DNA of 64,000 nt, taken from the NCBI GenBank assembly GCA_020736575.1, contig JAGPYM010000023.1, forward strand, positions 555,292 through 619,291. Direction: 5' to 3'. Made by a program: the position numbers and the translations under genes. Positions within the stretch are counted from its first letter, which is position 1. Each line of letters starts with the position of its first letter. Under the pieces are notes generated by a model. The model searched no databases. It was given only the letters and a program-made list of their open reading frames with translations, and had not been told where the DNA came from. Shown here piece after piece: positions 11,367 to 50,963 of this stretch. Origin of the DNA: Thelonectria olida (Eukaryota > Ascomycota > Sordariomycetes > Hypocreales > Nectriaceae).

Positions 11367-11385
11367 ATTAAGAGTCTCATACGCT
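11367..11385 (+). other. copia primer-binding site, tRNA-Lys type
   Basis: The 19 nt directly after the left LTR (attaagagtctcatacgct) are the reverse complement of agcgtatgagactcttaat. That string has the layout of the D-stem/anticodon-arm part of a tRNA with anticodon CUU (Lys). Priming from an internal tRNA cut, rather than the CCA end, is known for some Ty1/copia elements. The tRNA identity is from memory of tRNA-Lys sequences. Confidence 0.65.
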
Positions 11386-11426
11386 ATATTACTAGTCGAT
11401 TGAATACCTAACTGAGGACGGATCGC

Positions 11427-12661: not shown

Positions 12662-15600
12662 CTCAGACCGGTAGGCTCCTGTAACGCGAACGCTGCCCTC
12701 GCAGTCGGCGAGCACTACCCGTTGCAGGACTGTGTTCTCTTAGACTCAGGAGCAACACTACATATCTTCCGCGATACATCAAGGATGAGGAACTTAAGAG
12801 CTGCCCAACTAGGAGATTTCTTCTGGTCAGGGACTCAACAAGTGTCAATTGACGGATACGGGGATGCGACTATTACCCTACAGTCCGCCGACGGCTCGCC
12901 GAGGAAGCTCACAATCTATGACGTTGCCCTGTGTACGGCTCTCACCACCAACCTCATATCCTTCTCGAAGTTGAGAAAACGAGGCCTCTGGTGGGATACA
13001 AGACCGGGAAACAACTGTCTCAGAAGATCAGATGGGACCTTCCTTGGAGCCATCGACGAGCGGGAGGGACAACAAATCCTAGAATGGAAAGAGAGTCAAC
13101 CGATCACATCGAACGATCAACGAGCGCTCGCCGACAGATCAGCGGCGCTTCTTACTAACCAACCCCAGAAGAGACGCAAGCACACATCGTGGACTCACAG
13201 ACGACCCCTCTTAGGAGACACCCTTACGTGGCACCAACGGCTAGGTCATCCAGGTCCTGATGCCCTTCGGTGCCTGACAAGCGCCTCAAGGGGCGTTAGA
13301 CTGAAGATGGAAGAGCCCGAGGGACCTCAAAGGATCACTACCGTCGACTGTGATGCATGCGGTGTGGCGAAGGCTCGCCGAGTGATCAGACGGGCTCCGC
13401 GAGAAGCTACAGCCAGAGCGAGACCAGGAGACCGCATGGCCCTCGATTTCCACCCGATGACCCAAGGCTACGCTGGTTACACATCAGTCTGGATCTTTAC
13501 GGATAGAGCCACCGGTTATTCATGGGACTACTACGCAACCAGTTGGTCAACGCCCGCCCTGTGCTCGGCGATTACTCGATTCCTTAAGATGCTAGGTAGA
13601 GGTCCAATACTCCATCAAAGTCAAAGCAATCGAATGCGATAATGAGATTACGGAAATACATCCACGAGTCGCAGAATTGCTAAGTGATCGGGGAATACTC
13701 GCCGAGCCCTCGGCGCCCAATACCCAGGCACAAAATGGAGGCGCGGAACGCGTAGCCGCTGTCATCATACAAAAGAGCCGTGCAATGCGTGCCGGAGCTA
13801 AGTTACCCGAATACCTATGGCCAGAGTCAGTAAAGGCAGCTACCTATCTATATAACCGTACGCCCTCAGTGCACAGGAATCGGAAGACTCCATACGAGCT
13901 TTTCCACGGCCAATTCCGCTCCGACGAGACCGCGAGGCCCGACCTCTCGCACCTTCGAGCCTACGGCTGCAAAGCCTTTGCCCTCACAGCTGACGCACAG
14001 CTACGAAGGAACCGACTACAGAGACAGTCACCAAGAGCCTGGATTGGCTTCCTAGTTGGCTACACATCAAGCAATTCCTTTAGAGTGTGGAACCCACTAC
14101 AAAAGGAGGTCTTCACCACCCGGGACGTCTCGTTCAACGAGCGGCAACTGTTCGACGGGCGCTCGGAGAGCCTTCGGGACGATCTGCTAAAGGAAGACCT
14201 GGAGGCCATCCAAAGGCGAATCCAAGAGCTGCTGTCAATACAAGAACACACAGAACAGTGGGTATCGCAGCCGCCGGATGACGAGGCAGACGAGATCCAA
14301 GATGGGTCAGAGGAAGGTCACTTCGCTGAACACTCGGCGAGTGACCGGGAGCAGGAGGAGTCTGAAGAGACATCTGAAGGATATACAACAGCTAAGTTTG
14401 AGTTACTTCCTACTCCTCCACAGTCGCCGCCTGCCGCGTTCTTCCACACCTTGGCCGCTGGTCTCGGTGTGAAGGGGCGTGAGGAGGGAGAGGCAGACGA
14501 CGAGATCAGTTGCAGAAAGGTTGGCAAACAGCCGGCGAGACAAAGGATCTCCTTCAAGGCAGCATTCCTAGCCGGGAGACTCCAATCACCAAAACACCGC
14601 ACGAGCAACCGTCGAGGGGTCCACGGCAGCCTGGCCAGCTCTGTTGGATCACTTGATGAAGGAAGCGAGACTCAGCCTCAGATTAAACCAGATATAGGAA
14701 AGTGGTGTGCCAAGAGGGTTAGTAGCTCTACAAATACTGTAGGAAAGCTGAAGGCTCTGCGGGAGAGAAGCTCTATATCTGGGGAGGTAGGGCAGCCCTC
14801 TGTCGGTACACATTGGCGTATGCTAGAGCCGCTTCCTAGCTCGCATGCGAATGTAGCCAGTCATCCGTACCGGGATGCAATACTTACAGCTGAGAAGGCA
14901 CATCTACAGAGTCACGCAGAGTCACAATCGTGGATCGAAGTCACTAAGTCTGCGGCGAAGGGTCGCCGAGTGCTCGGCTGCCACTGGGTCTATGTCTATA
15001 AGCTCGATAAACACGGCAGATTCCAAAAGATCAAAGCACGCCTCGTGGTCCGCGGCGACCAGCAAGCGATCGATAGCCGAGAGACCTACGCAGCAACACT
15101 CGCGGGCATGTCATTCAGGACCCTCGTGGCCCTAGCTAACCGATTCGACTATACTATGTTGCAATACGATGCAGTCAACGCCTTCGTACATGCGAAGCTC
15201 GATGAAGAGATTTATATGGAAATGCCCAGAGGATATCAGAAGCCAGGGAGGATCCTGAAGCTGCAGAAAGCCCTCTATGGTCTTAGACGATCGCCCCTTC
15301 TGTGGCAAAAGCACTTCGAGAAGGGCTTGCTACAGGCGGGCTTTCGCCGAGTGCCCGGCGAGGACTGCTGTTGGCTCCACGGAGATATCATTTTCTTCTT
15401 CTACGTGGATGACTGCGTCCTCTGCTTTCCGAGGCAGGTCAAACCCCGAGCAATGTCACTAATAGAAGACCTGCAGAAGACCTATCATCTAGAAGGAGGC
15501 AAGCCTCTACAGTGGTTCCTAGGCATCGAAGTAATCCGAGACCGTGGAAACCGTCGCCTGTGGCTCTCACAGTCCTCCTATATTGACAAGATGCGCCGAC

Positions 15601-16475
15601 TGCTCGCTGATCACACGCCGAGACTACGAGCGATGACTCCTATGATACAGGAAGAACTGTTGCCCTACGAAGAGATCGCTAGCCCCAGAAGCGTCAACCT
15701 TTATCAACGCAAAGTCGGAACGATTATGTACGCAGCCGTGATGACCCGACCGGATGTGGCGTTTGCAGCAAGCCGGCTAGCTAGGTTCAACCAGAACCCA
15801 GGGCCACAGCACCATCAGGCAGCTGATCGGGCCCTATGGTATCTCATCGAAACACGCGGCCTTTCCCTCGAATATGGCACGATCCCCGGATGCGAAGAAG
15901 ATGGCTTACAAGTGGCTTCCGATGCGAGTTTCGCGGACAACTCGGCAGACCGTCGGAGCTCACAAGCCTTCGTCATGAAGCTATTCGGAGGGATCACATC
16001 ATGGAGAGCGAACAAACAGGATACAGTCACAACATCGACTACGGAAGCGGAGCTCCTAGCACTATCCCAAGCAGCCAAAGAAGCCCTCTTTGCTAGTAGA
16101 CTCATCTCTGCCTTGAGAGTCGACTTGTCCTCGCCAACTGCTCGCCGAGCAATCGCTTCGCCCTCGAGAGTCAAAATCGAATGCGACAATAAGCAGACTA
16201 TTCGACTAGTCACCGCGGAGCTCGTGCAGTTACGAACAAAGCTACGGCACGTCGACATTCACAACCACTGGCTGAGGCAGGAAGTGTTGGAGGAAAGAAT
16301 TGAAGTTATTTACACCCCGTCAACGCGACTGCTCGCCGACGGCTTGACGAAAAGCCTGCCTGGAGAGGCATTTGCCAAATTCGCTCAGCAACTCAAGCTC
16401 GCAGACCTCTCTAAGATATTAGAACAACGAAGGAATGATGAAGGATCCAGCTTGACGGCGATGCCCTCAAGCTGA
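12662..16475 (+). pseudogene. copia pol: protease, integrase, RT, RNase H
   Basis: Domains in copia order. Aspartic protease: LLDSGATLHIF at about 12736. GAG_pre-integrase zinc finger: WHQRLGHPG, then CDACGVAKARR. Integrase: MALDFHPMT, and SAPNTQAQNGGAERV after a frameshift. Reverse transcriptase: YDAVNAFVHAKLDEEIYMEM and FFYVDDCVL near 15395. RNase H: SDASFADNSADRRSSQAF, STTEAELLALS and LADGLTKSLP. The frame changes by one nucleotide between about 13580 and 13620 inside the integrase core, splitting the gene into 12722-13642 and 13677-16475. RT and RNase H are in one intact frame of 932 codons. The purine tract aagctgaagggg just before 16483 is the likely polypurine tract. Confidence 0.9.
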
Positions 16476-23983: not shown

Positions 23984-26107
23984 TCATACCAACGACTTGA
24001 TTGCTGTTGGAGAAACTATAATCGCGTCACTTCGAAGTATTGTAATGTTGACGACGACGATGCTCCCCCCGGCGGCGCACTCTTGCATCTCTGCCATTTC
24101 CTGGCCTAGCATGAAGCGCTCGTGGCCAGCAGTCCCTCTGATCTCCCGAATGCATGCGTCGAGCTCAGCCAGGGCTTCAAGACGGCGAATTCGCAACTGT
24201 GCCTGTATTGTGCCTTGCTCCACTTGACGGAGCGGAGTGTTGACTTCGTCTCGTAGTCGCTGGTATCGGCGAGCAATATCGGGATGTTGCTGTTCTAAGA
24301 TGGACAAATCGCTGTGGGCGTCAACCAGCTGGCCAATGATCACAGCACGGCCCTTCTCGAGATACCGAAGGGCGTCAGCTGGTTGGTTCGATTGAAGAAG
24401 GAAAGCGCACAAGTCAGCGGCGACGCCGCTGAAAGTCGAGATGACGAACTGCTGATCGGTCCGGTCCAGCAATTTCGTATTTACGCTCGGGAGTAGGTCG
24501 ATAATATTTTTCCCGAGGCCGATAGCGATATCAGTCTTGTGTTGAGGAGCGAGGAGTCTCAGACACCGGGCACCAGCTCGGACACGCCAAAAGGGAATGG
24601 CGGTTTGACAATGCCAAGCATCTTCTAAGTTCGACGAAGCTTCTTCCAAATCTGTCCGCTCATACCGGAGCTCAAGAAAAACTCCAAGGCTATTCAACCA
24701 AGCTACCCGGTTGGGATGATCGTCCGGTGTCGAGTCCACTACTTGTCTTGCAATGCCGATGGCTTCTTCTAAATTCGTCATCTTGCCTGTCCGCTCATAC
24801 CGGCGCATAAGAAATGCTCCAAGGCTATTCAACCGGGCTGCCCTCTCGGGATGATCGTCCGGTGTCAAGTCGACTGCTTGTCTTGCAATGCCAATGGCTT
24901 CTTCTAGATCCACCATCTCGCCTGTCCACTCATCTCGGCGCTCGAGAAGATTTCCGAGGCTATTTAACCAGGCTGCTCGGTTGGGATGATCGTCTGGTGT
25001 GGAGTCGACTGCTTGTCTTGCAATGCCAATGGCTTCTTCTAGATCTACCATCTCGCCTGTCCGCTCATATCGGCGCTTAAGAAATAATCCAAGATTATTT
25101 AACCAGGCTGCCCGGTCGGTATGATCACCCGGTGTCAAGCCCACTGCTTGTCTTGCTAGACGGATGGCTTCTTCTAGATCTGCCATCTCGCCTGTCCGCT
25201 CATATCGGCGCTCAAGAAAAACTCCCAGGTTGTTCAACCTGGCTGCCCGGTCATGATGATTGTCCGGTGTCGAGTCGACTGCTTGTCTTACTAAACAGAT
25301 GGCTTCGTCTAGATCTGCCATCTTGCTTGTCTGTTGATACCGGAGATCAAGCTTGATTCCTAGGTTGCTCAACCAGGCTACCCGGTCGGGATGGTCGCTT
25401 GGTATCGAATCGACTGCTTGTCTTGCTAGACGGATGGCTTCATCTATATTCGTCATCTCGCCTGTCCGCTGATACCGGCCCTCAAGCTTGCTTCCTAGGT
25501 TGTTCAACAAGCCCGCCCGTCTGGGATGATTGTCCGGTGTCGAGTCGACTGCTTGTCTTGCTAAACGGATGGCTTCTTCTAGATCCACTATCTCGTCTGT
25601 CCGCTCATACCGGAGACGAAGCTTGTTTCCTAGGTTGCTCAAGCAGGCTGCCCAGTCGGGATGGTCGTCTGGCGTCGAGTTCACAGCTTGTCTCGCCAAA
25701 CTAATAGCTTCTTCCAAATCCGCCATCTCGCCTGTCCGCTCATACCGGCTCTCAAGCTTGTTTCCAAGGTTATTCAAGTAGGCTGCCCGGTCAGGATGGT
25801 TGTCCGGAGTCGAGTCGACAGCCTGTCTTGCTATACCAATCGCATCTTCCAGATCCGCCATCTCGCCTGTCCGCTCATACCGGCTCCCAAGAAAAAGTCC
25901 GAGGTTGTTCAGGTGGCTGGTTAGGTGAGGGGAGGTATCTGGAATTATCATCAAACTCAGTTGAGCAGCCTTAACAGCTAAATGAATGTCTGACACGTCC
26001 CCAGTCTCCTGGAACTTCTCGTATGCCTCTATCGCAATGCCTAATAAAACGCTAGGCATATCTTCCGCGTCGATACCTAGTTGCTGGAAAGTTTGCTGTA
26101 GATCCAT
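23984..26107 (-). CDS. TPR protein, CHAT domain lost
   Basis: A 707-aa single-exon protein, paralogous to the gene at 29209. N-terminal region of about 75 aa (LQQTFQQLGI, shared with the paralog), then nine full and one partial TPR-type repeats of 45 aa (RYERTGEM.DLEEAI..ARQAVDSTPDDHP), then the conserved helical linker (DAWHCQTAIPFWRVRAGA; LRYLEKGRAVIIGQL). It stops at VSPTAIKSLV, just where the paralog continues into its CHAT domain, so it keeps the repeat scaffold and lacks the protease. Its repeats are more diverged from one another than in the paralog, suggesting it is not being homogenised. It may be a broken copy, or a regulatory decoy that competes for the same ligand. Its upstream block is conserved with the paralog. 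Confidence 0.85.
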   Translation of the reverse strand: MDLQQTFQQLGIDAEDMPSVLLGIAIEAYEKFQETGDVSDIHLAVKAAQLSLMIIPDTSPHLTSHLNNLGLFLGSRYERTGEMADLEDAIGIARQAVDSTPDNHPDRAAYLNNLGNKLESRYERTGEMADLEEAISLARQAVNSTPDDHPDWAACLSNLGNKLRLRYERTDEIVDLEEAIRLARQAVDSTPDNHPRRAGLLNNLGSKLEGRYQRTGEMTNIDEAIRLARQAVDSIPSDHPDRVAWLSNLGIKLDLRYQQTSKMADLDEAICLVRQAVDSTPDNHHDRAARLNNLGVFLERRYERTGEMADLEEAIRLARQAVGLTPGDHTDRAAWLNNLGLFLKRRYERTGEMVDLEEAIGIARQAVDSTPDDHPNRAAWLNSLGNLLERRDEWTGEMVDLEEAIGIARQAVDLTPDDHPERAARLNSLGAFLMRRYERTGKMTNLEEAIGIARQVVDSTPDDHPNRVAWLNSLGVFLELRYERTDLEEASSNLEDAWHCQTAIPFWRVRAGARCLRLLAPQHKTDIAIGLGKNIIDLLPSVNTKLLDRTDQQFVISTFSGVAADLCAFLLQSNQPADALRYLEKGRAVIIGQLVDAHSDLSILEQQHPDIARRYQRLRDEVNTPLRQVEQGTIQAQLRIRRLEALAELDACIREIRGTAGHERFMLGQEMAEMQECAAGGSIVVVNITILRSDAIIVSPTAIKSLV

Positions 26108-26219
26108 TTTTGGCGGAGGGTGTTAAAGGGACCTAGATTGATGGAGAGCAGCCATTGGGGCTGTGATCCTGTCGGGTTTATCAGACCAGTGCGCAAGCGT
26201 GCTCTGGTGCTCAGGGCAG

Positions 26220-26385
26220 CTGAGGTGTCACTCAGCCCAGAGGCCACGTCACTGGGGCGATTTTTGTGGCTGGCAATTTCTGGCCCAGCCCCAAGCCACC
26301 ATCACCGTGAACCAGCCAAGGCAGACATCGGCGGCCTTGAGATGAGAGCCAAGGCACGAATACGACACCCATGCAGGCCTAGCGA
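26220..26385 (-). promoter_or_regulatory. promoter block duplicated in both TPR genes
   Basis: The minus strand here matches 28935-29100 (for example gtgacgtggcctct and ggccgccgatgtctgc, about 85 nt apart in both). The block ends about 110 nt before the start codon in both genes. Conservation outside coding DNA suggests the duplicated segment included the promoter. Confidence 0.65.
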
Positions 26386-26849
26386 GAAGCTACCTAATGA
26401 GATAACTCGGAGAGGTGAAGCATTGAAGGCCACCGTCTGCATCTGGCTTGTAAGCGCTATCCTCTGTTTAGATCGGCTTGTATTCTACCCCTGTTGGCTG
26501 GAGACCCAGCCATCTTATCATCTGTACACAGCTCAAGATGGTTACACAGCTCATTGCAAAGGCAATCGACGTGCGACGCAATATTGGCATGAGTTTCGAA
26601 TACATCACAAACTGATTTGCTGACATTCTACGTACTGTCACGGGTGATAGGAGGTGCCATATATGTGGCAAACACCCGGCGTATTGGGATTTCTGAAATG
26701 GTTGGTTGATATCATTGTCGAACCGAGACCCCAAGTCTCATCTTGACGAATCACGAAATTGCCGCAGTGTGTACAGACTAGGACTTGGATATACGCGTTG
26801 ACTGACTATTGGCGCGATAACGACTTTCCATAAAACTTCATTAGTAACC
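26386..26849. other. no gene recognised
   Basis: Continuation of the region upstream of the CHAT-less TPR gene. No trace of the 277-aa gasdermin-like gene, which occupies the equivalent place at the paralogous locus, is visible. Confidence 0.5.
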
Positions 26850-28069: not shown

Positions 28070-28903
28070 TCATTTCTCGAATGAACGCATGAATATGGCC
28101 TGGTTTCCCACGACCTCCTTATCCCAGTCTCCATCCAAGCCGTTCACTTCTGTCAATTCAACCTCAATTACATCATCCTCGCCGTCCTCCTCATCCCTCG
28201 ATCTCTCCATCGATGACCACTGACGCACACCCGACAATCGAGAGTTGTCGACATGCTTGCTGGAGAGCCATCTGTGGCAAAGCTTGCGATACTCCAACGC
28301 GCATACCTGTTCGCCAGGTGCCACGAATTGCGATGTCGCTCCATCCGAGCCCTGTTGATGGACCCCAACACTAGGGTCAAGCAGGCCCCCGATCGGCGCA
28401 ATGACTCCAGCTGCAGTCAGGGACAGGGCAGCTGGAACCGTGGTCTGGCCGCCAGCGCTGTTTCCCATAATCGACGCCTGGCTAATACTGGCATCCATGA
28501 CTGTGCGATAACCGACTATCATGTATATATCTTCACCTCGATCTATTGCTCGCTCGATCCAGCCTCGGGTGGCGGCTAGGCCTATCGCTTCGTCAAACCA
28601 ACTATCGGAGTTATCGAGAGTGTAGGTCTTCACACGATTCGTGGCCACACGAATCTTCATGTTAGCGCGCTTGGAGAAGCCAGCGGAAAGCAGAGATGTG
28701 AACGACGCATTGAAGGCAGAATGACTGGCCGTTTCATGTTCACCAGTGTAGGAGTCGAGGTGTGAAACTAGCACGCGGGGTTGACCTTCAGATGGAGGAT
28801 CATGGTGGTTCTGGTGGGGATGGTCGATTCTGGTGACGAAGCGGCCAAGTTTGACGGAGTCCTGTGGCAGGAAAAAGGGTGTGAGGATGATGCTTCGCGT
28901 CAT
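28070..28903 (-). CDS. gasdermin-like pore-forming effector (candidate)
   Basis: A 277-aa single-exon gene (ATG 28903), head-to-head with the TPR-CHAT gene at 29209. Layout: N-terminal strand-rich part (VKLGRFVTRI), a basic middle (SAGFSKRANMKIRVATNRVKT), a conserved-looking WFDEAI...GWIERAIDRGEDIYMIVGY block, then LSLTAAGVIAPIG and PGEQVCALEYRKLCHRW, and a strongly acidic C-terminal tail (residues about 235-277). The order helix, GE.(L/I)Y..(V/M) strand, then a P-G-x-x-(V/L)-A-(Y) strand is reminiscent of the gasdermin N-terminal domain, and length and a short tail fit fungal gasdermins of about 250-280 aa. Published fungal gasdermin genes often sit beside protease genes, including CHAT ones. 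Seen: sequence pattern and position; inferred: membrane pore formation after removal of the tail. A GNSAGG string recalls HSL-type esterases but other esterase signatures are absent. Confidence 0.6.
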   Translation of the reverse strand: MTRSIILTPFFLPQDSVKLGRFVTRIDHPHQNHHDPPSEGQPRVLVSHLDSYTGEHETASHSAFNASFTSLLSAGFSKRANMKIRVATNRVKTYTLDNSDSWFDEAIGLAATRGWIERAIDRGEDIYMIVGYRTVMDASISQASIMGNSAGGQTTVPAALSLTAAGVIAPIGGLLDPSVGVHQQGSDGATSQFVAPGEQVCALEYRKLCHRWLSSKHVDNSRLSGVRQWSSMERSRDEEDGEDDVIEVELTEVNGLDGDWDKEVVGNQAIFMRSFEK

Positions 28904-29208
28904 GTTGCCTGTGGTACAAAGTTGAAAATCCCCCTAGGTCTGCGTAGGCATTGTATTTGTGCCTTCGCTCTCACCTCAGGAGGCCGCCGATGTCTGCGTT
29001 GGCTGGTTAGCAGTGATGGTGGCTTGAGGCTGAGCGGACTAAATGCCAGCCGCAAAAATCGCCCTAGTGACGTGGCCTCTGAGCGAGACACATCTCAGTG
29101 ACCGAGAGGTGTCTGCGCATGTAGCTATCGCTTTCGATAACCCCGGCAGGACCCGAGTCCCGACGCTGTTCTGCAACAATCGAGATTCCCTCGACACTCA
29201 CTGCCCAA
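28904..29208. promoter_or_regulatory. bidirectional promoter of the effector/TPR-CHAT pair
   Basis: 305 bp between two divergent start codons. The part 28935-29100 is conserved with the block upstream of the TPR paralog (26220-26385). A shared promoter would co-express effector and protease. No TATA box or specific binding site can be named with confidence. Confidence 0.6.
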
Positions 29209-32200
29209 ATGAATCTACAGCAGACTTTCCGATGGCTAGGTATTGAAGAGGAAGTTATGCCGAACTGTTTATCGTTCTTCAAGACAGGGGTGTACCAGAG
29301 ATTCCGGAAGACTGGGGACATGGCCGCAGGCTGGTTGAATAACTTCGGAAACAAGCTTAGTCGACAGTATAACAAGCTTAGTCGCCGGTATAACAAGCTT
29401 AGGAACCGGTACGAACGGACAGGCAAGATGGCCGACCTAGAAGAAGCCATCAGTCTAGCAAGACAAGCAGTTGACTCGACACCGGACGACCACCCCGACC
29501 GGGTAGGCTGGTTAAACAGCCTCGGACTTTCTCTTGGGGCACGATATGAACGGACAGGCGAGATGGCCGATCTAGAAGAAGCCGTCAGTTTAGCAAGACA
29601 AGCAGTTGACTCGACACCGGACGACCATCCCAACCGCGCAGGCTGGTCAAATAACCTGGGAATTTCTCTTGAGCGACGGTATGAACGGACAGGCAAGATG
29701 GCCGACCTAGAAGAAGCCATCAGTCTAGCAAGACAAGCAGTTGACTCGACGCCGGACGACCACCCCAACAGGGCAAGCCGGTTAAACAGCCTTGGAATTT
29801 CTCTTGTGATACGGTATGAACGGACAGGCGAGATGGCCGATCTAGAAGAAGCCGTCAGTTTAGCAAGACAAGCAGTTGACTCGACACCGGACGACCACCC
29901 CGACCGGGTAGGCTGGTTAAACAGCCTCGGACTTTCTCTTGGGGCACGATATGAACGGACAGGCGAGATGGCCGATCTAGAAGAAGCCGTCAGTTTAGCA
30001 AGACAAGCAGTTGACTCGACACCGGACGACCATCCCGACCGGGCAAGCCGGTTAAACAGCCTCGGACTTTCTCTTGGGACACGATATGAACGGACAGGCG
30101 AGATGGTCGATCTAGAAGAATCTATCAGCTTAGTACGACAAGCAGTCGACTCGACACCGGGCGACCACCCTGACCGGGCAGGCAGGTTGAACAACCTAGG
30201 AAACAATCTTGGTCGGCGGTATGAGCGGACAGGCAAGATGGCGGATCTGGAAGAAGCCATCGATCTAGCACGACAAGCAGTTGACTCGACACCGGACGAC
30301 CACCCCAACCGCGCAGGCTGGTTGAATAACCTGGGAAACAAGCTTAGGAGCCGGTATGAGCGGACAGGCAAGATGGCCGACCTAGAAGAAGCCATCAGTC
30401 TAGCAAGACAAGCAGTTGACGCGACGCCGGACGACCATCCCAACCGCGCAGGCTGGTTGAATAACCTAGGAACCAAGCTTGAGAGCCGGTATGAGCGGAC
30501 AGGCGAGATGGCCAATCTAGAAGCAGCTATCAATTTAGCAAGACAAGCAATTTACTCAACACCGGACGACCATCCCAACCATGCAGTCGCGTTGAACAAC
30601 CTCGGTACCTATCTTGGTCGGCGGTATAGGCGGACGGGCAAGATGGCCGACCTAGAAGAAGCCATCAGTCTAGCAAGACAAGCAGTTAACTCAACACCGG
30701 GCGACCACTCTGACCTGGCAAGCAACCTTAGGAGCCGGTACGAACGGACAGGCGAGATGGCCGACCTAGAAGAAGCCATCAGTCTAGCAAGACAAGCAGT
30801 TGACGCGACGCCGGACGACCACCCCGACCGGGTAGGCTGGTCAGAAAACCTCGGAGTTTCTCTTGAGCGACGGTATGAACGGACAGGCAAGATGGCCGAC
30901 CTAGAAGAAGCCATCAGTCTAGCAAGACAAGCAGTTGACTCGACACCGGACGACCACCCCGACTGGGCAGGCTTGTTGAATAACCTAGGAGACAAACTTA
31001 GGAGCCGGTATGAACGGACAGGCGAGATGGCCGATCTAGAAGAATCCATCAGCTTAGTACAACAAGCAGTTAACTCGACACCAGATGACCATCCTAAACG
31101 GGCAAGCAAGTTAAACAGCCTTGGAATTTCTCTTGTGATACGGTATGAACGGACAGGCGAGATGGCCGGTCTAGAAGAAGCCGTCAGTTTAGCAAGACAA
31201 GCAATTTACTCAACACCGGACGACCATCCCAACCATGCAGTCGCGTTGAACAACCTCGGTACCTATCTTAAGAGCCGGTACGAACGGACAGGCAAGATGG
31301 CCGACCTAGAAGAAGCCATCAGTCTAGCAAGACAAGCAGTTAACTCAACACCGAGCGACTGCCCTGACCAGGCAAGCAGGTTAAATAACCTAGGAAACAA
31401 GCTTGAGAGCCGGTATGAGCGGACAGGCGAGATGGTGGACCTGGAAGAAGCCATCGGTATAGCAAGACAGGCTGTTGACTTGACACCAGACGACCATCCT
31501 GACCGGGCAGGCAGGTTGAATAACCTAGGAAACAAGCTTGGTCGGCGGTATGAGCGGACAGGCGAGATGGTGGACCTGGAAGAAGCCATCGGTATAGCAA
31601 GACAGGCTGTCGACTCGACCCCGGACGACCATCCTGACCGGGCAAGCAGGTTGAATAACCTAGGAAACAAGCTTGGTCGGCGGTATGAGCGGACAGGCGG
31701 GATGGCGGATCTGGAAGAGGCTTCATTGACTTTACAAGATGCTTGGCATTGTCAATCCGCCATTCCCTTCCATCGTGTCAAAGCCGGTGCCCGATGTCTG
31801 AAACTCCTCGATCCTCAACGCAAGACTGATATCGCCATAGACCTCGGGAAAAACATTATCGACCTACTCCCGAGCGTAAATACGAAACTGCTCGACCGTA
31901 CCGATCAGCAGTTCGTCGTGTCGACTTTTAGTGGTGTCGCCGCTGACTTGTGCGCTTTCCTTCTTCAATCCAACCAGCCCGCTGACGCCCTTCGGTATCT
32001 CGAGAAGGGCCGTGCTGTGATTATTGGCCAGTTGATGGACGCCCGGAGTGATTTGTCCCTCTTGGAACAGCAGCATCCCGATATTGCTCGACGATACCAA
32101 CAGCTCCGAGACGAAATCAACACCCCGCTCCGTCAAGTGGAACAGGGCGTAATACAGGCACAGTTGCGAATTCGCCGTCTTGAAGCCCTGGCTGAGCTCG

Positions 32201-33351
32201 ATGCATGCATTCAGGAGATCCGAGGGACTGCTGGCCACGAGCGATTCATGCTAGGCCAGGAAACGGCAGAGATGCAAGAGTGCGCCGCCGGGGGAAGCAT
32301 CGTCGTCGTCAACATTACAACATTTCGAAGTGACGCGATTATAGTTTCTCCAACAGCCATCACAACACTTAATCTGCCAAGACTGGCTGCCGAGGATGCA
32401 AGGGCTTGGCTGGGCAAGAAATGGACAGGCCGCAGATCAGAACGCGCACAAAAGAACAGGGAATACCTCGATTATCTGTCCTGGCTGTGGGGGATGTGTG
32501 TCGAGCCGATTCTTAACGAAGTTTGCCACAGCCACGACACGGTGAACAGCCTGCCGAGGATATGGTGGATCGGGACCGGCCTTGCCAGCTCGATGCCTTT
32601 TCATGCCGCGGGAATGCATTCTGCTGATTCAACGGACAATGCGTTCAGCAGAGCCGTTTCGTCCTATACTCCGTCTATCAAAGCGCTTGCGCATGCACAG
32701 CATCGAGCTAGGGCCACAGCTAGTGTTAAAGGATCGGTTCTGATTGCCACCATGCCAACTACGCCAGGCAACGCTTCATGCCCTGACCTTCCAGGTGTTT
32801 CTGAAGAGAAGAATCAACTGATGGGCGTGATTAATGGGCGTCTTTCTATACAATATCAGGAGTTGCCTAGCGTGGAGGATGTTGTTGAGAGCCTGCGGAA
32901 CTGTTGCATTGCGCACTTTGCCTGCCATGGATTTACGGACCAGGTGGATCCTTCCAAGAGCGGACTGATCTTGCAAAGTCGGGGTGAACAGGACAGGTTA
33001 ACGGTGCACACAGTGTCGCAGTTGAGCCTTGGGAACGCACAGATAGCATACCTATCAGCTTGCTCGACGGCGGAGAATAGGTCGGCACGGCTATCGGATG
33101 AGGTGATTCATTTGGTGAGCGGGTTTCAGGTATCCGGCTTTCCGCATGTAATTGGGTGTCTTTGGCCATCGATCGACCGGGTTTGTGTGGCAGTTGCAGG
33201 TAGATTTTATCAGTCGCTGCTCAGGGGAAAGACGACTTGTTGGGACGGCCGAGAGGTGGCTTTGGCACTCCGGGATGCTGTGATGGAGGTGCGGAAGACG
33301 GAGTTGAGGATGCCGCTAGCGTGGGCGCAGTTTGTTCACTTCGGTGCATAG
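29209..33351 (+). CDS. TPR-CHAT protein, putative caspase-like protease
   Basis: A 1380-aa single-exon protein. Residues about 1-65 are a short leader with a local triplication (NKLSRQY, NKLSRRY, NKLRNRY). About 17-18 TPR-type repeats of 45 aa fill residues 66-840, one (near 30,700) shortened. A helical linker follows, then a CHAT domain from about residue 1060 to the end: YLSWLWGMCVEPIL, PRIWWIGTGLASSMPFHAAG, HFACHGF with catalytic His 1240, and LSACSTAEN with catalytic Cys 1285. CHAT is a caspase-fold peptidase domain of the separase/caspase clan. TPR-CHAT proteins act as ligand-controlled proteases, for example the Csx29 partner in type III-E CRISPR systems. Both dyad residues and the frame are intact. 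The divergent gasdermin-like neighbour is the natural candidate substrate (inference). Confidence 0.9.
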   Translation: MNLQQTFRWLGIEEEVMPNCLSFFKTGVYQRFRKTGDMAAGWLNNFGNKLSRQYNKLSRRYNKLRNRYERTGKMADLEEAISLARQAVDSTPDDHPDRVGWLNSLGLSLGARYERTGEMADLEEAVSLARQAVDSTPDDHPNRAGWSNNLGISLERRYERTGKMADLEEAISLARQAVDSTPDDHPNRASRLNSLGISLVIRYERTGEMADLEEAVSLARQAVDSTPDDHPDRVGWLNSLGLSLGARYERTGEMADLEEAVSLARQAVDSTPDDHPDRASRLNSLGLSLGTRYERTGEMVDLEESISLVRQAVDSTPGDHPDRAGRLNNLGNNLGRRYERTGKMADLEEAIDLARQAVDSTPDDHPNRAGWLNNLGNKLRSRYERTGKMADLEEAISLARQAVDATPDDHPNRAGWLNNLGTKLESRYERTGEMANLEAAINLARQAIYSTPDDHPNHAVALNNLGTYLGRRYRRTGKMADLEEAISLARQAVNSTPGDHSDLASNLRSRYERTGEMADLEEAISLARQAVDATPDDHPDRVGWSENLGVSLERRYERTGKMADLEEAISLARQAVDSTPDDHPDWAGLLNNLGDKLRSRYERTGEMADLEESISLVQQAVNSTPDDHPKRASKLNSLGISLVIRYERTGEMAGLEEAVSLARQAIYSTPDDHPNHAVALNNLGTYLKSRYERTGKMADLEEAISLARQAVNSTPSDCPDQASRLNNLGNKLESRYERTGEMVDLEEAIGIARQAVDLTPDDHPDRAGRLNNLGNKLGRRYERTGEMVDLEEAIGIARQAVDSTPDDHPDRASRLNNLGNKLGRRYERTGGMADLEEASLTLQDAWHCQSAIPFHRVKAGARCLKLLDPQRKTDIAIDLGKNIIDLLPSVNTKLLDRTDQQFVVSTFSGVAADLCAFLLQSNQPADALRYLEKGRAVIIGQLMDARSDLSLLEQQHPDIARRYQQLRDEINTPLRQVEQGVIQAQLRIRRLEALAELDACIQEIRGTAGHERFMLGQETAEMQECAAGGSIVVVNITTFRSDAIIVSPTAITTLNLPRLAAEDARAWLGKKWTGRRSERAQKNREYLDYLSWLWGMCVEPILNEVCHSHDTVNSLPRIWWIGTGLASSMPFHAAGMHSADSTDNAFSRAVSSYTPSIKALAHAQHRARATASVKGSVLIATMPTTPGNASCPDLPGVSEEKNQLMGVINGRLSIQYQELPSVEDVVESLRNCCIAHFACHGFTDQVDPSKSGLILQSRGEQDRLTVHTVSQLSLGNAQIAYLSACSTAENRSARLSDEVIHLVSGFQVSGFPHVIGCLWPSIDRVCVAVAGRFYQSLLRGKTTCWDGREVALALRDAVMEVRKTELRMPLAWAQFVHFGA
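29406..31715 (+). repeat. 135-bp TPR-coding tandem repeats
   Basis: About 17 copies at exact 135-bp spacing (for example ttgactcgac at 29471 and 29606). Many copies are identical over long stretches including third codon positions, and blocks of several repeats recur as larger units (the segment around 30540-30700 is repeated around 31200-31360). This points to recent unequal exchange or gene conversion. Confidence 0.88.
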
Positions 33352-42950: not shown

Positions 42951-44658
42951 ATGGCGACTTCGTGGCCCCAAGAGGTGGCATGGCCAGCCGAATTCCGCGA
43001 GCACGCCACGCAACTCGGCAAATACCTCAGGGACGCCCTCTTGTGCATCGAACGCGCGAAAGACCAACCTGTCCCCCATGACCTAGCCAAGATCATGGCC
43101 ATGGGCGCACTATCCCTCGTCAATAAGATCCACAACATCCCAGACCTCGGCACTGTACATGACGCACTACAGATGGTAAGAACCGAATCGAAGATCGCGG
43201 CGGAAAGCACGATGCAGGCTCTCAACGATATCAAGACGGAACTCAAACAGGCAGCGAACACGGGCCAGCAGGCATTAGAAGGAATACGCGAGGGCCACAA
43301 AACACAGAACGAGACGAAGGCGGCAGCCAGAGAATCGATCGATATCGGCAGAACAGTCATGACAATGGTGAGAGAGATCAAGAACGCAGACCAGCACAAC
43401 CGCCCGAGCTTGCCACGGACCTACGCATCTGTAGCAGCTGGTAATGGGCTAGCTACTAGCATGCACAATCCACTGAACCAAAACAAGGCACCACATGCGC
43501 AAGTGCTCCGAGAGATCACCGTGAAACATTCGGAACCCACTCACCATAGCCAGCCTACGGGCGATGAACCCCCGTAGCCTGAAAGCACACGTAGACCGTG
43601 CTATAGAACAAAGCGGAAACGAGCATATAGAGAACATCAAGACGGTGTCAACTAACCAACTCAAAAGCGGTGACCTTAGCATCAAGACGGCTGCGACCTC
43701 TGACATGGAGGTACTCCGACAGTTCGCTGAGGACTGGGAGCACCGGCTCGGCAATGGAGCAACAGTGCGCATTCCAACATACGGAGTTCTTGTTCACGGC
43801 ATCCGTACCAGCTCGATAGATGTGAGCCAACTTGAGGACACCAGAGACAGCATTCTCCAGGAAAACAGACCGTTCATCCCGAGCGCCGAGATAAAATACA
43901 TAGGCTGGCTCACGAGGAAATCTGCGGAAAAGGCTGCTTCCTCGATTATCATTGAGTTTACAAGACCCCAAGACGCCAACAAGATCATCGACGAGGGCCT
44001 GATCTGGCAAGGGGAGGTCTTTCAGTGCGAGCTGTACAACAGGTCGTGCCGACTGAGGCAATGCTTCGGCTGTCAAGGATATGGCCACATAGGAACCCAG
44101 TGCAAGGCAACGACGAGATGCGGCTACTGCGCTCAAGAACACGCGTCCCGTGAATGCCCTGTCAAATCCGACAGGAGCGTACCCAGAAAGTGCGCCAACT
44201 GTAAAGGTCAACACGAGGCCTGGAGCAACCAGTGTGCAATCAGGAAGGAGGAGATGGCCAAGGTCAAGGCCGCATACGCCGCACGTCCCAGGTACCACCT
44301 AGAGCCACAGAGCAGCATGGCAGTCAGCCAGGCGAACCCAACTGTGAGAGCCCAGGAGGAGCCGATCGGACGAATCATCCGGGAGGGAGCGCCATCTCTC
44401 GCACCTGGCCGCAGTCAGCAGAATCGGCAAGGAAGAAGCAGGTCACCGACGAAGAGAGGGCAAAAGAGAGCCAACCCTGGAAGCAACGCAGTCGCCCCGA
44501 ACGAGGTTGAGAACGAAATCACAGTCAACACGGGCAGTCAACGGCCCCAAAGAATCATAACGCCATCTAGAAGGGCACTGGAAGCCCTCGATGCAAACTC
44601 GGCACGACTACACGGCACCTACCAAGCGGAGAACATGGACGTTGACAACCGTGAATGA
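42951..44658 (+). pseudogene. LINE ORF1 with CCHC knuckles, one frameshift
   Basis: ATG 42951. The N-terminal half is helical (coiled-coil-like Ala/Glu/Lys region about residues 60-145), then RTYASVAA. At about 43520-43525 (gtgaaacattcgg) one extra A shifts the frame; the continuation is in the frame of 43564-44658, with the conserved block (RIPTYGVLVHGI, IGWLTRKSAEKAASSIIIEF) and CCHC-type knuckles (CFGCQGYGHIGTQC, CGYCAQEHASREC, and a third Cys/His cluster). It ends at TGA 44656-44658, overlapping the ORF2 start. ORF1 protein normally coats the RNA and chaperones target priming. Confidence 0.85.
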
Positions 44659-47600
44659 GACACACGGAATCACTCTCAATATTACAGTATAACGTCAGAA
44701 AATCGAGAGACATCGTTATGGCTACCCTCCTACGGGACCCAAGGGTAATGAAATTCGACATCTTAGCCATCCAGGAACCATGGGCGAATTCCTTCATGCA
44801 CACCACACACCATCCGGCAAAAGACCAGTTCCATCTATGCTACCCCCAAAATGAAGGCGGAAGCCCAGCAAGGGTGTGTCTGTATATCAACAAACGCCTT
44901 GATCATTCAAAGTGGCAATTCGAGTCGCACGGTCGGGACCTTTGCACAGTAACGATAACCTTAGGACAAGGAGACGAGATGAGAGAGGTCAAGGTGCACA
45001 ACATTTACAACCCCGACCAAACGGCGGAAAATAGGCGAAGCGTACTACCTCAACTGCGAAGGGTGCTCGACTCGGCTCGACAAACAGAGCAGATACTAAT
45101 CGGAGACTTCAATCTACATCATGAGTTGTGGGGGGGCTCCCATGTCCCTAGAACAGAGGCAGAGGCAGAAGATCTCGCCGAGATTATGGAAGACTATAAC
45201 CTCACAAACACTCTGGCACCAGGCACTATCACGTACGAAGAAGGCAAAAGGCAGACAACAATCGATCTCTGCCTGGTCACCCTCGGCCTGGTCGATCGGG
45301 TCATCAGATGCGAAGTAGACCGTAGTCTCGACCACGACTCAGACCACTTGCCGATCGTCACTTCCCTCGACATGTCAGTCAAGCAACTCAGCAGAGAACC
45401 CACCAGAAACTGGAAATCGATAGATGAGAAGAGATTCAGGTCTGCGGTCCTGGGCAAGCTGCCGCCGCAGCGAAGACCGAGAACCCGAAGCGCGCTTGAT
45501 CGGTACGTGGGGGAAATAGTTGCAGCGCTGAAGAGTGCGATAGAGACAGCAGTGCCCCAAAGGACATGGTCACCTAAATCCAGACGCGGCTGGGATGAGG
45601 AGTGCACGCGAGTGCTGGCAGAGACCAAGCGCCTCAGGCGACTTCACAATCTCTACCACACGGAAGAAACATGGGAGGCATACCGAGCGGCTAGAAATCA
45701 CAAAGGCAGGGTAATCAAGAAGGCACTGCGAAGAGCGCATCGAGATAATGTTGAGAGAGCTTCAGAGTCACCAGAGGCTCTCTGGAGAATGGCAAAATGG
45801 GCTAGAAACAGAACCACTCAGGCACCAGAGGTAACACCTACACTACAGCACCCAGACACCTCTCAAATGGTCTCAGACCCAGCGGAAAAGGCAGAGATCT
45901 TCAGGAAGGCATTCTTTCCCTCCCCACCGGAAGCAGAGATTGGCGACATCGAAGACGCGACTTACCCGGACCGGATAACGATGCCGCCCATTACAGAACA
46001 AGAAGTGGAGAGAGCCATGCAAGAAGCCTCGCCGCTCAAGGCTCCCGGCCCTGATAGCATCCCGAACAAAGCATTGCAACTAGCAGCGACATGGATTAAG
46101 CCTCACCTGTCGGCGATTTTCAACCAGAGCCTCAATCTCGGTTACTGTCCACAACACTTCAGGGAATCGACAACAGTTGTACTGAGGAAGCAGGGAAAGG
46201 ACAACTACACCATTCCTGGGTCTTACCGGCCGGTAGGGTTGTTGAACACCATAGGCAAGATCATGGATGCCATAATAGCAAACCGACTGAGCTATGTGGC
46301 GGAGACACATAACCTGCTCCCCTCAACCCACATGGGAGGCAGGAAGATGAGATCCGCCGAGCATGCCGTGCATCACATCATCGATAAGTTCTATGAGGCG
46401 TGGAACATTGGCCGAGGCCAGGTAGCCAGCTTGCTATTACTCGACGTCTCCGGTGCCTTCGACAACGTATCACACAAGCGGCTCCTGCACAACCTACGGA
46501 AGAGGAAAATTGATGAGAAGACTGTTCGGTGGATATCGAGTCTTCTTGAAGACCGACACACCAGGATCTCGATCGATGGATTCAGAACCGAGCGACACAG
46601 AATCTCGACCGGGACAGTACAAGGCTCGCCGCTCTCACCAATCCTCTACATTTTCTACAACGCAGATCTCATCGAGAGCTGCAATCAAGCAGAGGACACC
46701 ACCTCTACTGGGTTCATTGACGACGTGGCGATCCTCACATGGGGAGGTACGACGACGGAAACATGCAACAAACTTCAAGGAGCACTCCAAATAGCCGAAC
46801 AGTGGGCGAAAACCCATGCGTCAGTCTTCTCACCCAGCAAATTCCAACTCATACACTTCACCAGGGCACGCACGAGAATAGATATTCAACACCCACTGCA
46901 AACGGCATGGGGCGAGATCCCGGCAAAGCCGACCTGCAAATATCTAGGACTCATCATGGATTCTGCGCTGCAGTGGAAGCCCCACGTAGACGAAATACGG
47001 AGGAAGGCGACGAAAACAATCTCAGCCCTAAGTAGCCTGGGTAGCTCAATCTGGGGCCTTACCCTCCAAGACATGAGGAAGATCTACCGAGGGGTGGTGG
47101 TGCCACAGATCGTATATGCATGCTCTGCATGGTCAAACTCAAACTGGAGAACGCGAAACATGCCGTACACAAACAAGACACTGGCACAACTGCAAAGTCT
47201 GCAGGCACGGGCAGCCAGGGCGATTTCTGGTGCCTTCAAAGCTACGTCAGCCCCCGCCCTGGATGTCGAAACACATCTTCTGCCCATCGAACATCAAATC
47301 TGGAAGCACAACGCGGACTGTCTGGGAAGAATCGGCTTTGGGGGACAAGAATCCCAGCACAGTGCAGATGGTCTGGGAGGAGGAAAGACAAAAATGAGCC
47401 CACGCAGAGCAATACAGAAAGCCATACAGGACGAACAAGGGTTCGAGATGGAGAAAATGGAAGTAATCACCCCACACGTCGTCCCACCATGGTGGAGAGG
47501 CCCAAAAACGTTCATCGAAGAGAGCGTCGAGAAAGCACAAGCGAGACACCAGTACGGCATCGGCAATGAGCCAAACGCTATACACATATACACGGATGGA

Positions 47601-48268
47601 AGTGGCATCAACGGACACGTGGGCGCTGCGGCAGTGTGCACGACGACCAGTCAAAGCAGGAGCGCCTACATGGGCGACGACACCGTATCGACAGTGTACG
47701 CCGGCGAACTCCAAGGGATCTCCCTGGCTCTCCAGATCGCCCAGGAAGACAGAAGCCAAGGCAATATCAGAAAGAAAATCTTGATCTACACAAACAACCA
47801 AGCAGCTATCAGGTCGGCGGCGAGGCCCAGGGGCAAGAAGTCCACATTAAAAATGTGGTCGCGCAGAGTTGTCAACGACAGATGGAAAACGCAGTGGCGA
47901 CAGGAAACCAGGGGCCGGACAACCTTGAGGCACACACCGGAGCCAACACCAAAAGTACTTCAGCCACACAAACACTTCAGCAAGAGGCAGAGCGCCATTT
48001 ACATCCAACTCCGGACGGAAAAGATTGGGATGAACGACTTTCTCTTCAAACGAAGAGTGCCAGGGGTCACCGATCCGAGATGCAACTGCGGCGAAGGGCG
48101 GCAGACAGTAGCCCACACCCTACTTCAATGCAGGAAGCACACCACACTTCGAAACCAGGAACTAGGCCAATTTCCAGGACGCCAAAATCTCCGGACACTA
48201 CTGAGCGAGCGCAAAGTAGCAGCAAAGGTCGTCAAGTTCATGGAACAAACCCAGATCCTTGGGCAATT
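42951..48268 (+). mobile_element. Tad-like LINE retrotransposon
   Basis: ORF1 (nucleic-acid-binding) and ORF2 (EEP endonuclease, reverse transcriptase, RNase H) in the usual order, joined by a 4-nt ATGA overlap at 44655-44658. The 3' end is cut by a hAT element starting at 48269, and no poly-A or simple-repeat tail can be identified. The 5' end probably lies somewhat upstream of 42951, but the boundary is not visible. Confidence 0.88.
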
Positions 48269-48323
48269 CAGTGTTGCTAATAATATGGCAATAAAACAAT
48301 ATATTGCAATACATACGATATGA
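44655..48323 (+). CDS. LINE ORF2: EEP endonuclease, RT, partial RNase H
   Basis: Open frame of 1222 codons, its last 18 lying in hAT DNA. N-terminal endonuclease: LQYNVRKSRD, LAIQEPW, LIGDFNLHH and SDHLPIV with the expected Asn/Glu/Asp/His. Reverse transcriptase: KAPGPDSIPNKA, SYRPVGLLNTIGK, LLLLDVSGAFDNV, TGTVQGSPLSPIL and the catalytic FIDDVAIL near residue 688. RNase H starts with IYTDGSG (about residue 976) and ELQGISLAL, then TNNQAAIRS, but the segment with the last catalytic His/Asp (a HW.PAH.G....AD-type motif) is absent: the frame goes from RPRGKKSTLK to VVNDRWKTQW, an in-frame loss of several dozen residues. A C-terminal Cys/His motif (CNCGEGRQTVAHTLLQC) remains. Long uninterrupted ORF, but RNase H is probably inactive. 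Confidence 0.88.
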   Translation: MRHTESLSILQYNVRKSRDIVMATLLRDPRVMKFDILAIQEPWANSFMHTTHHPAKDQFHLCYPQNEGGSPARVCLYINKRLDHSKWQFESHGRDLCTVTITLGQGDEMREVKVHNIYNPDQTAENRRSVLPQLRRVLDSARQTEQILIGDFNLHHELWGGSHVPRTEAEAEDLAEIMEDYNLTNTLAPGTITYEEGKRQTTIDLCLVTLGLVDRVIRCEVDRSLDHDSDHLPIVTSLDMSVKQLSREPTRNWKSIDEKRFRSAVLGKLPPQRRPRTRSALDRYVGEIVAALKSAIETAVPQRTWSPKSRRGWDEECTRVLAETKRLRRLHNLYHTEETWEAYRAARNHKGRVIKKALRRAHRDNVERASESPEALWRMAKWARNRTTQAPEVTPTLQHPDTSQMVSDPAEKAEIFRKAFFPSPPEAEIGDIEDATYPDRITMPPITEQEVERAMQEASPLKAPGPDSIPNKALQLAATWIKPHLSAIFNQSLNLGYCPQHFRESTTVVLRKQGKDNYTIPGSYRPVGLLNTIGKIMDAIIANRLSYVAETHNLLPSTHMGGRKMRSAEHAVHHIIDKFYEAWNIGRGQVASLLLLDVSGAFDNVSHKRLLHNLRKRKIDEKTVRWISSLLEDRHTRISIDGFRTERHRISTGTVQGSPLSPILYIFYNADLIESCNQAEDTTSTGFIDDVAILTWGGTTTETCNKLQGALQIAEQWAKTHASVFSPSKFQLIHFTRARTRIDIQHPLQTAWGEIPAKPTCKYLGLIMDSALQWKPHVDEIRRKATKTISALSSLGSSIWGLTLQDMRKIYRGVVVPQIVYACSAWSNSNWRTRNMPYTNKTLAQLQSLQARAARAISGAFKATSAPALDVETHLLPIEHQIWKHNADCLGRIGFGGQESQHSADGLGGGKTKMSPRRAIQKAIQDEQGFEMEKMEVITPHVVPPWWRGPKTFIEESVEKAQARHQYGIGNEPNAIHIYTDGSGINGHVGAAAVCTTTSQSRSAYMGDDTVSTVYAGELQGISLALQIAQEDRSQGNIRKKILIYTNNQAAIRSAARPRGKKSTLKMWSRRVVNDRWKTQWRQETRGRTTLRHTPEPTPKVLQPHKHFSKRQSAIYIQLRTEKIGMNDFLFKRRVPGVTDPRCNCGEGRQTVAHTLLQCRKHTTLRNQELGQFPGRQNLRTLLSERKVAAKVVKFMEQTQILGQFSVANNMAIKQYIAIHTI

Positions 48324-50963
48324 TATGCCCTATCCGATATTGTGCCAATACAATATGCAGCTTGCCATATTGCCACAATACAATATCGGGATGTCCATAT
48401 TGGCAATATATTGTTTGTATTGGCTTGTCTCTTTAGAGGAAAAGTTCATTTGTTTGTTGACAAATTGACCGACTGACACGCGATGACGCGCGAAAAAAGG
48501 CGTAATGGAGGTGTCAACTGAGTATTATAGGGTAGCAGTCGCCAACACCAACCCCCCCGCAACCCCGCTGTTGTCAGTGCACAAAGGAGTAGAGAAACCT
48601 CGATGCCTAAACAACGCCTTCTGTTTGTTCAAACGTCGCGACGAAAAGTTTCGTCAGTATCAGACGACATTTCGGAACTCTCCAGCCAGCAATTGTGTGA
48701 GAGCCAAACCTCTCAATGCCAATCATCGCGACCTCGCACGGCTTCCACAGCTTCGTGTGCTACGCCAAGAACATCATGGGTCTTCTCTCATATGCCAGAC
48801 GAGGAGATCGAGACGAGATACTACAACCAACGTACCGGAAAAGAGGAATGGCGTTGCAAGCATTGCGACTAAACGTATTCCTGTTCCGGTGGAACCGCGG
48901 CCCCGGCTAAGCACCTAACGGACCCGCCTCCCGACGGTCACGGTCTCCCCAAAGGCGCGCCCCGAACAGCAAAGGTGACAAACATACGGACTATTCTCGA
49001 ACAAGCTCGTGTTACGGCCGAAGAGAATCCCCGTAAACGCCGCAGACTCAATGATCAATGTGGAGGCTCGATCGACCCAGACCAGCTCGAAGCGTTATAT
49101 GTACGATTCATTACTGCGTGTTCGCTCCCATTTCGGCTTATAGAGTGCCCTGAATTTCGGGCACTCCTGGCCTATCTCAATACCGATATCGATACTTGGC
49201 TTCCAGACACACATGAGACCATCAAGAAATGGATTATGCGGCAGTATGAAGCTCAGAAGGAGAAGGTCAAGCAGCGCATACAATCGGCAAAGTCAAGGAT
49301 CCATATCAGCTGCGATCTTTGGACTTCTTCCAACTCTTTGGCCATACTAGGCATAGTCGCTCACTACGTTACGGAAGACGGTCAGCTGGAACACCATATT
49401 TTGGCGTTGAAAGACATCGACAGTGACCACGACGGTTCTCACCTCGCTGCGGCAATTTTGGAAGTGGTTGACGAATGGGGTTTTGCTTCAAAGCTTGGAT
49501 ATTTCGTGATGGACAATGCAGGCAATAACGACACCATGATGAGATCCCTTTCTCTTGGTCAGTACAACTCACTGTTTCTCCTGATTGGCCCTAATAACAT
49601 TCACAGGCCTCCTACGCCGATATGACATCCAATACGATCCCAAAGCTCACCGACTCCGCTGTCAAGGCCATATTATCAACCTCGCCGCCAAAGCCTTCCT
49701 CTTCGTTACCGACAATGAGAAACTCGAACACGACGATACTGGTCTGCATAGTGTGACCCTAAAACATATTGAAGCGTGGCGGCAAAAGGGTCCTCTTGGC
49801 AAGCTTCACAACTTCGTCGTCTTCATCCAACGAAGTGTTCAGCGCACCCAAAAGTTTCTTGCTATTAGCCACAACCGTAAGCTTGCGCGGGACAACGACA
49901 CACGATGGAGTTCGTGGTATAATATGCTGCGAGCAGCCTTGAATCTCAGAGACGCAATTGACGGCTACTTCAACAAATGGATGGAAGCAGATTGCGCTGG
50001 AGACGAGCTCTCTTCAGAGGACTGGATCATCCTCGAGAAGATCAAGTCCTTTTTGGAGAAGCTGAAAATGACAACCAAGGCTCTCGAGTCATCGTTTGCA
50101 ACTCTCGACAATGTCCTCTTGGCTATGGACTTCGTCTTGGCACAATTTGAAGCAGGGAAGGAGGCACATATCGACGATCCGATGATGGCACCAATGTACA
50201 ACTCGGGCTGGGCGAAGTTGGACAAATACTACCGTCTTACTGATGAATCGCCTGCCTACGTTGCGGCTATCGTGCTCCACCCTTCGCATAAATGGCACTA
50301 CATACAGGAGAACTGGAAAAAAGAGTGGGTTGAGTCATCAAAGAAGCTGATTGAGACGCTGTGGGACGAATATAAACCCGTGGAATCACCTCTTCCTCTC
50401 TGTGAGGTCCCGTCGACGACTACGAACGAGTTCTTGAATTGGAGGAACAAGCACCTGCAGCCATCGCTCATCACGGACGAGTACGAGCGTTATTGTAAGT
50501 CTGAACGAGTTTATGGGTTTACAAGCGCCCTTGCATGGTGGCTAGAGGAGACGCAGCAGAAAAACTACCCCAGCCTGAGCAAGATGGCTGTGGATATACT
50601 GTCAATCCCTGCAATGTCTGCGGAGCCCGAACGACTCTTCTCTGGGGCAAAGATAACGATTACGGACCGTCGAAATCGACTTGGGAGTGATATAATTGAA
50701 GCATTGGAGTGCTTGAAGTCATGGTTTGGGATACGAGATTTGCAAGATGGCGATATTTTAGATGCGGCAGTTGAATGATGAAGGTCACGTGTAATATATG
50801 GGATATATTGTCACACTGCCAATATATTGGGTGCTTGGCAATACAATACAATATCGATCATTCCCATATTGCGTAATACAATACGCACCTCTTGACAATA
50901 CAATAATATTGCGAGGGGGTCCATATTGCCAATATCGTATTGTTTATATTATTAGCAACACTG
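48269..50963 (+). mobile_element. hAT DNA transposon
   Basis: A 2695-bp element with 18-bp terminal inverted repeats CAGTGTTGCTAATAATAT at both ends and subterminal clusters of caatat/atattg. Expected 8-bp target duplications do not match (gggcaatt left, gtaataaa right), which suggests later deletion or recombination at one side. It interrupts the 3' end of LINE ORF2. Confidence 0.9.
48603..50778 (+). pseudogene. hAT transposase, one stop in BED finger
   Basis: Two exons, 48603-49557 and 49607-50778, joined by a 49-nt intron (donor GTCAGT, ctaataac branch, CACAG acceptor), 708 codons. BED-type zinc finger: WRCKHCD, stop, TYSCSGGTAAPAKHL; TAA at 48870-48872 replaces what is normally Gln/Lys. 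The RNase-H-like core has SCDLWTSSNSLAILGIVAHY and YFVMDNAGNNDT, then DNDTRWSSWYNM in exon 2. The C-terminal hAT dimerisation region reads ILSIPAMSAEPERLFSGAK. Everything but the single stop looks intact, so death is recent or the BED finger is dispensable. Confidence 0.88.

Follow-up and report, generated by a model that had tools for sequence, protein, structure and literature searches.

Gasdermin genes of fungi are known to form two-gene clusters with protease genes, and in these clusters proteases of the CHAT or cysteine class hold a share of about 17-19%, according to excerpts of the literature (PMC10197012, PMC12881547, PMC10989679). One of these three sources, a review, credits Clave et al. 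2022 with having found a TPR-CHAT protease to activate a gasdermin of Podospora anserina. HET-Q1 of the same species consists of 278 residues and loses its 40 C-terminal residues upon cleavage after Phe238 (PMC10989679); its gene is located beside that of HET-Q2, an S8 serine protease. RCD-1 of Neurospora crassa is activated differently, namely by meeting an antagonistic variant, which a review, as far as excerpted, describes as co-expression of two variants. On the protease side, one allele of hetB of Aspergillus fumigatus is reported in an excerpt to be a CHAT gene (PMC11138114). A CRISPR effector acts as the switch of the TPR-CHAT protease of Craspase (Csx29), whose substrate is Csx30 rather than a gasdermin; in this enzyme, a Lys takes the place of the Arg-binding Asp of separase and cleavage occurs after Leu (PMC9729208, excerpt). 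Separase itself cuts after [D/E/S]-hydrophobic-ExxR, while Slk19 is cut after DxxR (PMC12609080, PMC6858450, both in excerpt).

A gasdermin-like gene next to a TPR-CHAT gene

Within the 64-kb stretch of Thelonectria olida DNA analysed here (referred to as the window) a single open frame at 28070..28903 of the minus strand encodes a gasdermin-like protein of 277 aa, the predicted pore-forming effector, and a single open frame at 29209..33351 of the plus strand encodes a TPR-CHAT protein of 1380 aa, the putative sensor-protease. A preceding sequence-only reading had described both as a head-to-head pair, and its coordinates proved right: 305 bases separate the start codons of the two genes, which are on opposite strands. 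This intergenic region (28904..29208) presumably constitutes a two-way promoter, and similar regions of 300 bp split the pair at two other loci. As in the fungal gasdermin-protease two-gene clusters of the Q2L type (CHAT class), the gasdermin gene is found within 10 kb of the CHAT protease gene. That fungal gasdermins are often encoded beside protease genes had been stated as background in the sequence-only reading, and the reviews, as far as excerpted, describe just such clusters. Hence, the gasdermin/CHAT pairing as a kind is already known and the pair in the window is a further case of it; it shares with the described clusters a multidomain CHAT gene as neighbour of the gasdermin-like gene and, as predicted for the pair in the window, the release of the pore former by cleavage, but concerns another species and other loci, and what the sequence adds here are the fixed [E/D]xxR motif and the variable TPR positions. 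Long open frames antisense to the TPR array (e.g. 29064-30533) look like by-products of the repeats.

The predicted fold of the 277-aa protein is that of a gasdermin. A Foldseek search of the PDB returned gasdermins at ranks 1 to 29, with low TM-scores by query length (0.19-0.35 over these ranks), VIA-align backs the assignment, and both programs give RCD-1 as the closest structural match. Residues 146-187 of the model have a pLDDT under 50. Both strands which had been taken to follow the gasdermin order, GEDIYMIVG and PGEQVCALEY, are there. Fungal gasdermins measure about 260-280 aa and end in a short tail rather than in a large inhibitory domain; with its 277 aa, of which 41 form the tail, the protein fits this description, and the homologues are alike in this respect. 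Of the two comparisons that had been proposed for this protein, the one by structure thus stood, while the profile HMM found no match among solved gasdermins: neither the single sequence nor a 68-row profile retrieved any at E ≤ 10. HMMER detected no sequence similarity between RCD-1 and the 277-aa protein, and Pfam yielded no family over the cut-off, just a sub-threshold DUF. Homologues of the protein itself are numerous (185 at E ≤ 1, of which 120 are listed and 67 entered the gasdermin alignment). From the model and by analogy to HET-Q1 we consider the protein a fungal gasdermin which would insert into membranes, oligomerise and kill cells.

In the 1380-aa protein TPR families (PF13374, 1.2e-83) precede a CHAT domain which matches PF12770 at residues 1088-1379 (4e-41; 141.8 bits against a curated cut-off of 24). 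Linker helices and CHAT protease domain (31786..33348, plus strand) were modelled as one piece, the fold of which resembles those of the Craspase TPR-CHAT protein, to which the CHAT part comes closest, and of separase. For the CHAT domain on its own phmmer returned no solved relative; such relatives were reached with profiles. The claimed catalytic dyad of His1240 (codon 32926..32928, plus strand; motif FACHG) and Cys1285 (codon 33061..33063, plus strand; motif SACST) is present and occurs in 45 of the 45 aligned sequences, i.e. in the window sequence and 44 of the 120 listed homologues. The likeness to separase ends at the profile level: the C50 profile (PF03568) has three matches in the genome, including a strong one on contig C155, and none of them is the window gene; the protein may at most work like separase and, judged by profile, is not a C50 peptidase. 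An hhalign comparison with one separase, the genome's own (probability 54%), in which the position of the Arg-binding Asp was derived from what we take to be the number of the catalytic Cys of the Chaetomium enzyme, aligns this Asp with Val1327. The nearest conserved acid is Asp1323, found in 44 of 45 aligned sequences, and the Craspase alignments name no clear counterpart. It seems that the Asp which binds the P1 Arg in separase is not kept in the CHAT domain of the window.

The acidic tail and a candidate cut site

The short acidic tail noted from the letters could be confirmed, with a net charge of -12 after Arg236. It comprises residues 237-277 (41 aa; 28073..28195, minus strand), may act as the inhibitory piece, and nearly equals in length the 40 residues lost by HET-Q1 according to the excerpt. 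Tails of the listed homologues mostly measure 38-53 aa, and every tail longer than 25 aa is acidic. Directly ahead of it, the protein reads S-M-E-R-S-R up to Arg236. The Glu-x-x-Arg at residues 233-236 (codons 28196..28207, minus strand) is proposed as the cleavage motif: when the 120 listed homologues were examined, 113 of the 115 which have both positions turned out to carry [E/D]xxR at this place, the two exceptions being one ExxK and one YxxR. By its sequence and its position before the acidic tail the motif resembles a separase site. We predict, with fair confidence, that the CHAT protease cuts the 277-aa gasdermin after Arg236. The excerpts of the review literature give no cut site for CHAT-paired fungal gasdermins, and a mention in Clave et al. 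2022 is possible; within this scope no earlier description of a fixed [E/D]xxR site in such gasdermins was found, and the site appears to be new from sequence.

The alternative to be weighed most seriously, though we regard it as rather unlikely, is that the CHAT protease cuts elsewhere, for instance near residues 219-222 or Trp229, and that [E/D]xxR belongs to the tail as an element for docking or folding. In the tail region, the conservation of Trp229, Asp244, Val248 and Trp260 is about equal to that of Arg236; the CHAT domain seems to lack the Asp by which separase binds Arg, as outlined above, and Craspase, its closest fold, cuts after Leu. The sole other [E/D]xxR of the protein, at residues 219-222, is kept in 69 of 118 rows, and its presumed counterpart recurs in 62 of 80 rows of the family of a relative with an S8 protease as neighbour (see below), for which reason it is probably structural; the conservation in both families indicates that a [D/E]xxR can be retained for reasons other than cleavage. 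What speaks against cleavage at another site is that no motif except 233-236 combines the separase-like pattern with a constant position in almost every relative, immediately ahead of the acidic stretch.

The S8-neighboured relative is a distant one, a frame of 278 aa on contig C132 of the same genome. It matches the 277-aa protein with E 0.246 when the whole genome is searched, with 24% identity over 236 residues and an E of 1.5e-5 only when the search is confined to a few loci, and with 37.9 bits when the profile of the 277-aa family is used. About 450 bases upstream of this gene and on the same strand an S8 subtilase frame (PF00082, 9.6e-13) is located, so that the locus (L017:20-1956) shows the HET-Q1/HET-Q2 layout. 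The pair in the window likewise has a gasdermin of near-equal size beside a protease, but the latter is a CHAT cysteine protease with a proposed P1 Arg, in contrast to the serine protease HET-Q2. Judged by single-sequence search, the link between the 278-aa relative and the 277-aa gasdermin is weak, and the 81 matches of the relative have no identifier in common with the 120 listed homologues. In its family some [E/D]xxR further down is present in 28 of 80 rows, and at residue 238, which we equated with Phe238 of HET-Q1 on equal length alone, 78 of 82 rows carry V, I, F, M or L.

Recurrence of the pair and variation of the TPR array

Ten matches to the 277-aa protein exist in the genome: three full-length copies, one half copy, three short fragments, the distant C132 relative and two weak ones. 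The full-length copies are that of the window and those on contigs C98 (96% identical) and C81 (95% identical); the half copy, near 450 kb of contig C82, covers the first 150 residues. A TPR-CHAT gene adjoins four of these four full- or half-length copies. At C81 and at the half copy the two genes diverge from each other across 300 bases. The 10-kb stretches around the three short fragments contain no CHAT match. In total, the genome harbours at least 38 CHAT matches, some being pieces of one gene, and for four of them the coordinates place a full- or half-length gasdermin copy at a distance of no more than 10 kb.

Some of these loci deviate in their architecture. The C98 module (L019:2697-9380) is rearranged, with a remnant of a divergent TPR gene, a full gasdermin gene and then a complete TPR-CHAT gene of the same direction, to which a separate, partial copy of the intergenic region belongs. 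In the gasdermin copy at L021:3177-3653 (minus strand) the resemblance to the family is lost after some 150 residues and the frame ends after 158, the TPR-CHAT gene beside it being apparently intact. In the window, a second TPR-CHAT gene at 23984-26107 (minus strand) ends before the catalytic half; as the stretch upstream of it (26167-26386) is similar to the one that precedes the gasdermin gene in related loci, it appears to be what is left of another module. About 19 kb from the pair, at 3920-9013 (plus strand), frames for PNP_UDP, NACHT/NPHP3_N and WD40 repeats follow in a row, which is a typical make-up of fungal NLRs. Transposable elements occupy 9759-16475 and 44655-50778 (DDE_1 transposase, copia-like RVT_2, LINE-like RVT_1 plus endonuclease, hAT dimerisation domain).

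The presence of three full-length copies with 95-100% identity to the window protein could also be taken to mean that the gasdermin is activated without any cleavage, by an antagonistic variant in the manner of RCD-1, with the CHAT protein being a scaffold or acting on another target. RCD-1 is the best structural match and responds to the co-expression of two variants, as stated in the review excerpt. Yet the dyad is intact in every one of the 45 aligned sequences, acidic tail and [E/D]xxR are conserved, and the pairing with a protease recurs, so that we consider activation without cleavage improbable.

The pairing extends beyond this genome. Among the matches listed, seven gasdermin/CHAT pairs with consecutive locus tags are found in other ascomycetes (HIM_10684/10683, HIM_06574/06575, PCL_09503/09504, PCL_09506/09505, QQS21_002008/002009, V495_04961/04960 and B7463_g11075/g11074). 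In addition, of the 66 gasdermin rows whose contig measures at least 5 kb, 27 agree in contig size with a listed CHAT match (120 of the 1370 found are listed, 119 of them usable for this comparison), which on megabase contigs is not equivalent to proven adjacency; synteny in other fungi was judged through locus tags and contig sizes. Over 27 pairs the divergence of the gasdermins correlates with that of the CHAT proteins (Mantel r 0.77, with 0 of 2000 permutations as high), a correlation which may reflect species phylogeny only. From this set P0054 was dropped due to two CHAT candidates on its contig, while P0005 was kept though its contig also has two. The expectation that the pairing would be met elsewhere was thus borne out, as homologues often have a CHAT neighbour both in the same genome and in other species, and this recurrence together with the 185 homologues renders the pair more than chance. 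Mere chance proximity within a region rich in repeats and duplicating genes, as might be suspected from the number of CHAT matches in the genome and from several transposable elements in the window, is hardly credible in view of the consecutive locus tags in other genera and of all four full- or half-length copies being paired.

The TPR array of the window gene (29407..31718, plus strand) contains 16 clear copies of a repeat of 135 bp (45 aa), compared to 13 at C98, 11 at C81, 4 at the half-copy locus and 9 in the truncated gene at 23984-26107. It is most variable at repeat positions 34, 35, 41, 42, 44, 45 and 16 or 31. At the seven most variable positions, picked for each gene from the other four genes, uncorrected pN/pS amounts to 1.01-1.85 versus 0.26-0.58 elsewhere in the repeat (five genes); these genes are paralogues which may exchange sequence, so that the tests are not independent, and one of them has just 4 repeats. 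The common positions 34, 35, 41, 42, 44 and 45 would fit one helix face, and the repeats appear to behave like diversifying sensors. For fungal NLRs it has been described that repeats of great similarity evolve in concert and that selection acts on their exposed residues (PMC10197012, excerpt). An earlier description of variable TPR positions in a gasdermin-paired CHAT protease was not found in the excerpts of the review literature.

Proposed mechanism and implications

The gene pair, the predicted folds, the catalytic dyad, the recurrence of the pair, the conserved motif and tail and the variable TPR positions are what we observe, and they make it very probable that the locus is a two-gene module of programmed cell death, in which a tail-inhibited gasdermin is cut by a TPR-sensing CHAT protease. 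Cleavage and its site, pore, ligand and a role in non-self recognition or defence are predicted components of this module. The gasdermin would be kept inactive by its short acidic C-terminal tail until a cue binds to the variable face of the TPR array. This binding would, as the class of the protease suggests, switch on the caspase/separase-like CHAT domain to cut the gasdermin presumably after Arg236, whereupon the tail would leave. The freed part of 236 residues, as suggested by its fold and by HET-Q1, would insert into membranes as a pore and kill the cell or a compartment. The sequence-only reading had arrived at a cell-death module as well; the predicted gasdermin fold and the frequent CHAT neighbour among the homologues speak in its favour, and its ligand gating and release by cleavage keep the conditional form given here. 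The function of the module is likely non-self recognition or defence, and a review among the three sources named at the outset, as far as excerpted, calls the cues and the regulation of fungal gasdermin proteases open.

Taken jointly, the observations allow for a tentative reading, to which we give slightly less than an even chance: CHAT immune proteases of fungi would have kept or re-evolved the separase type of substrate reading, protease and P1 residue would have been swapped together, and the TPR array would represent a receptor that evolves fast. CHAT-paired gasdermins would then be marked by a [D/E]xxR cut site, almost invariant and placed just ahead of the acidic tail, while the sister family, with its member beside an S8 protease, would lack this site and have a hydrophobic residue at the residue number of the HET-Q1 cut; the number of TPR repeats and one helix face would change by concerted evolution. 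In a bolder step, gasdermins with [D/E]xxR could also report runaway separase, since separase in the same nucleus reads ExxR.

For the gasdermin/CHAT family the question is reduced to a precise and cheap test involving one arginine of the effector and one cysteine of the protease, and the variable TPR positions point to the place where a ligand is expected to bind. If true, the prediction would connect separase-type specificity with an immune protease of fungi and would provide a sequence rule to tell CHAT-cut gasdermins from others in genomes.
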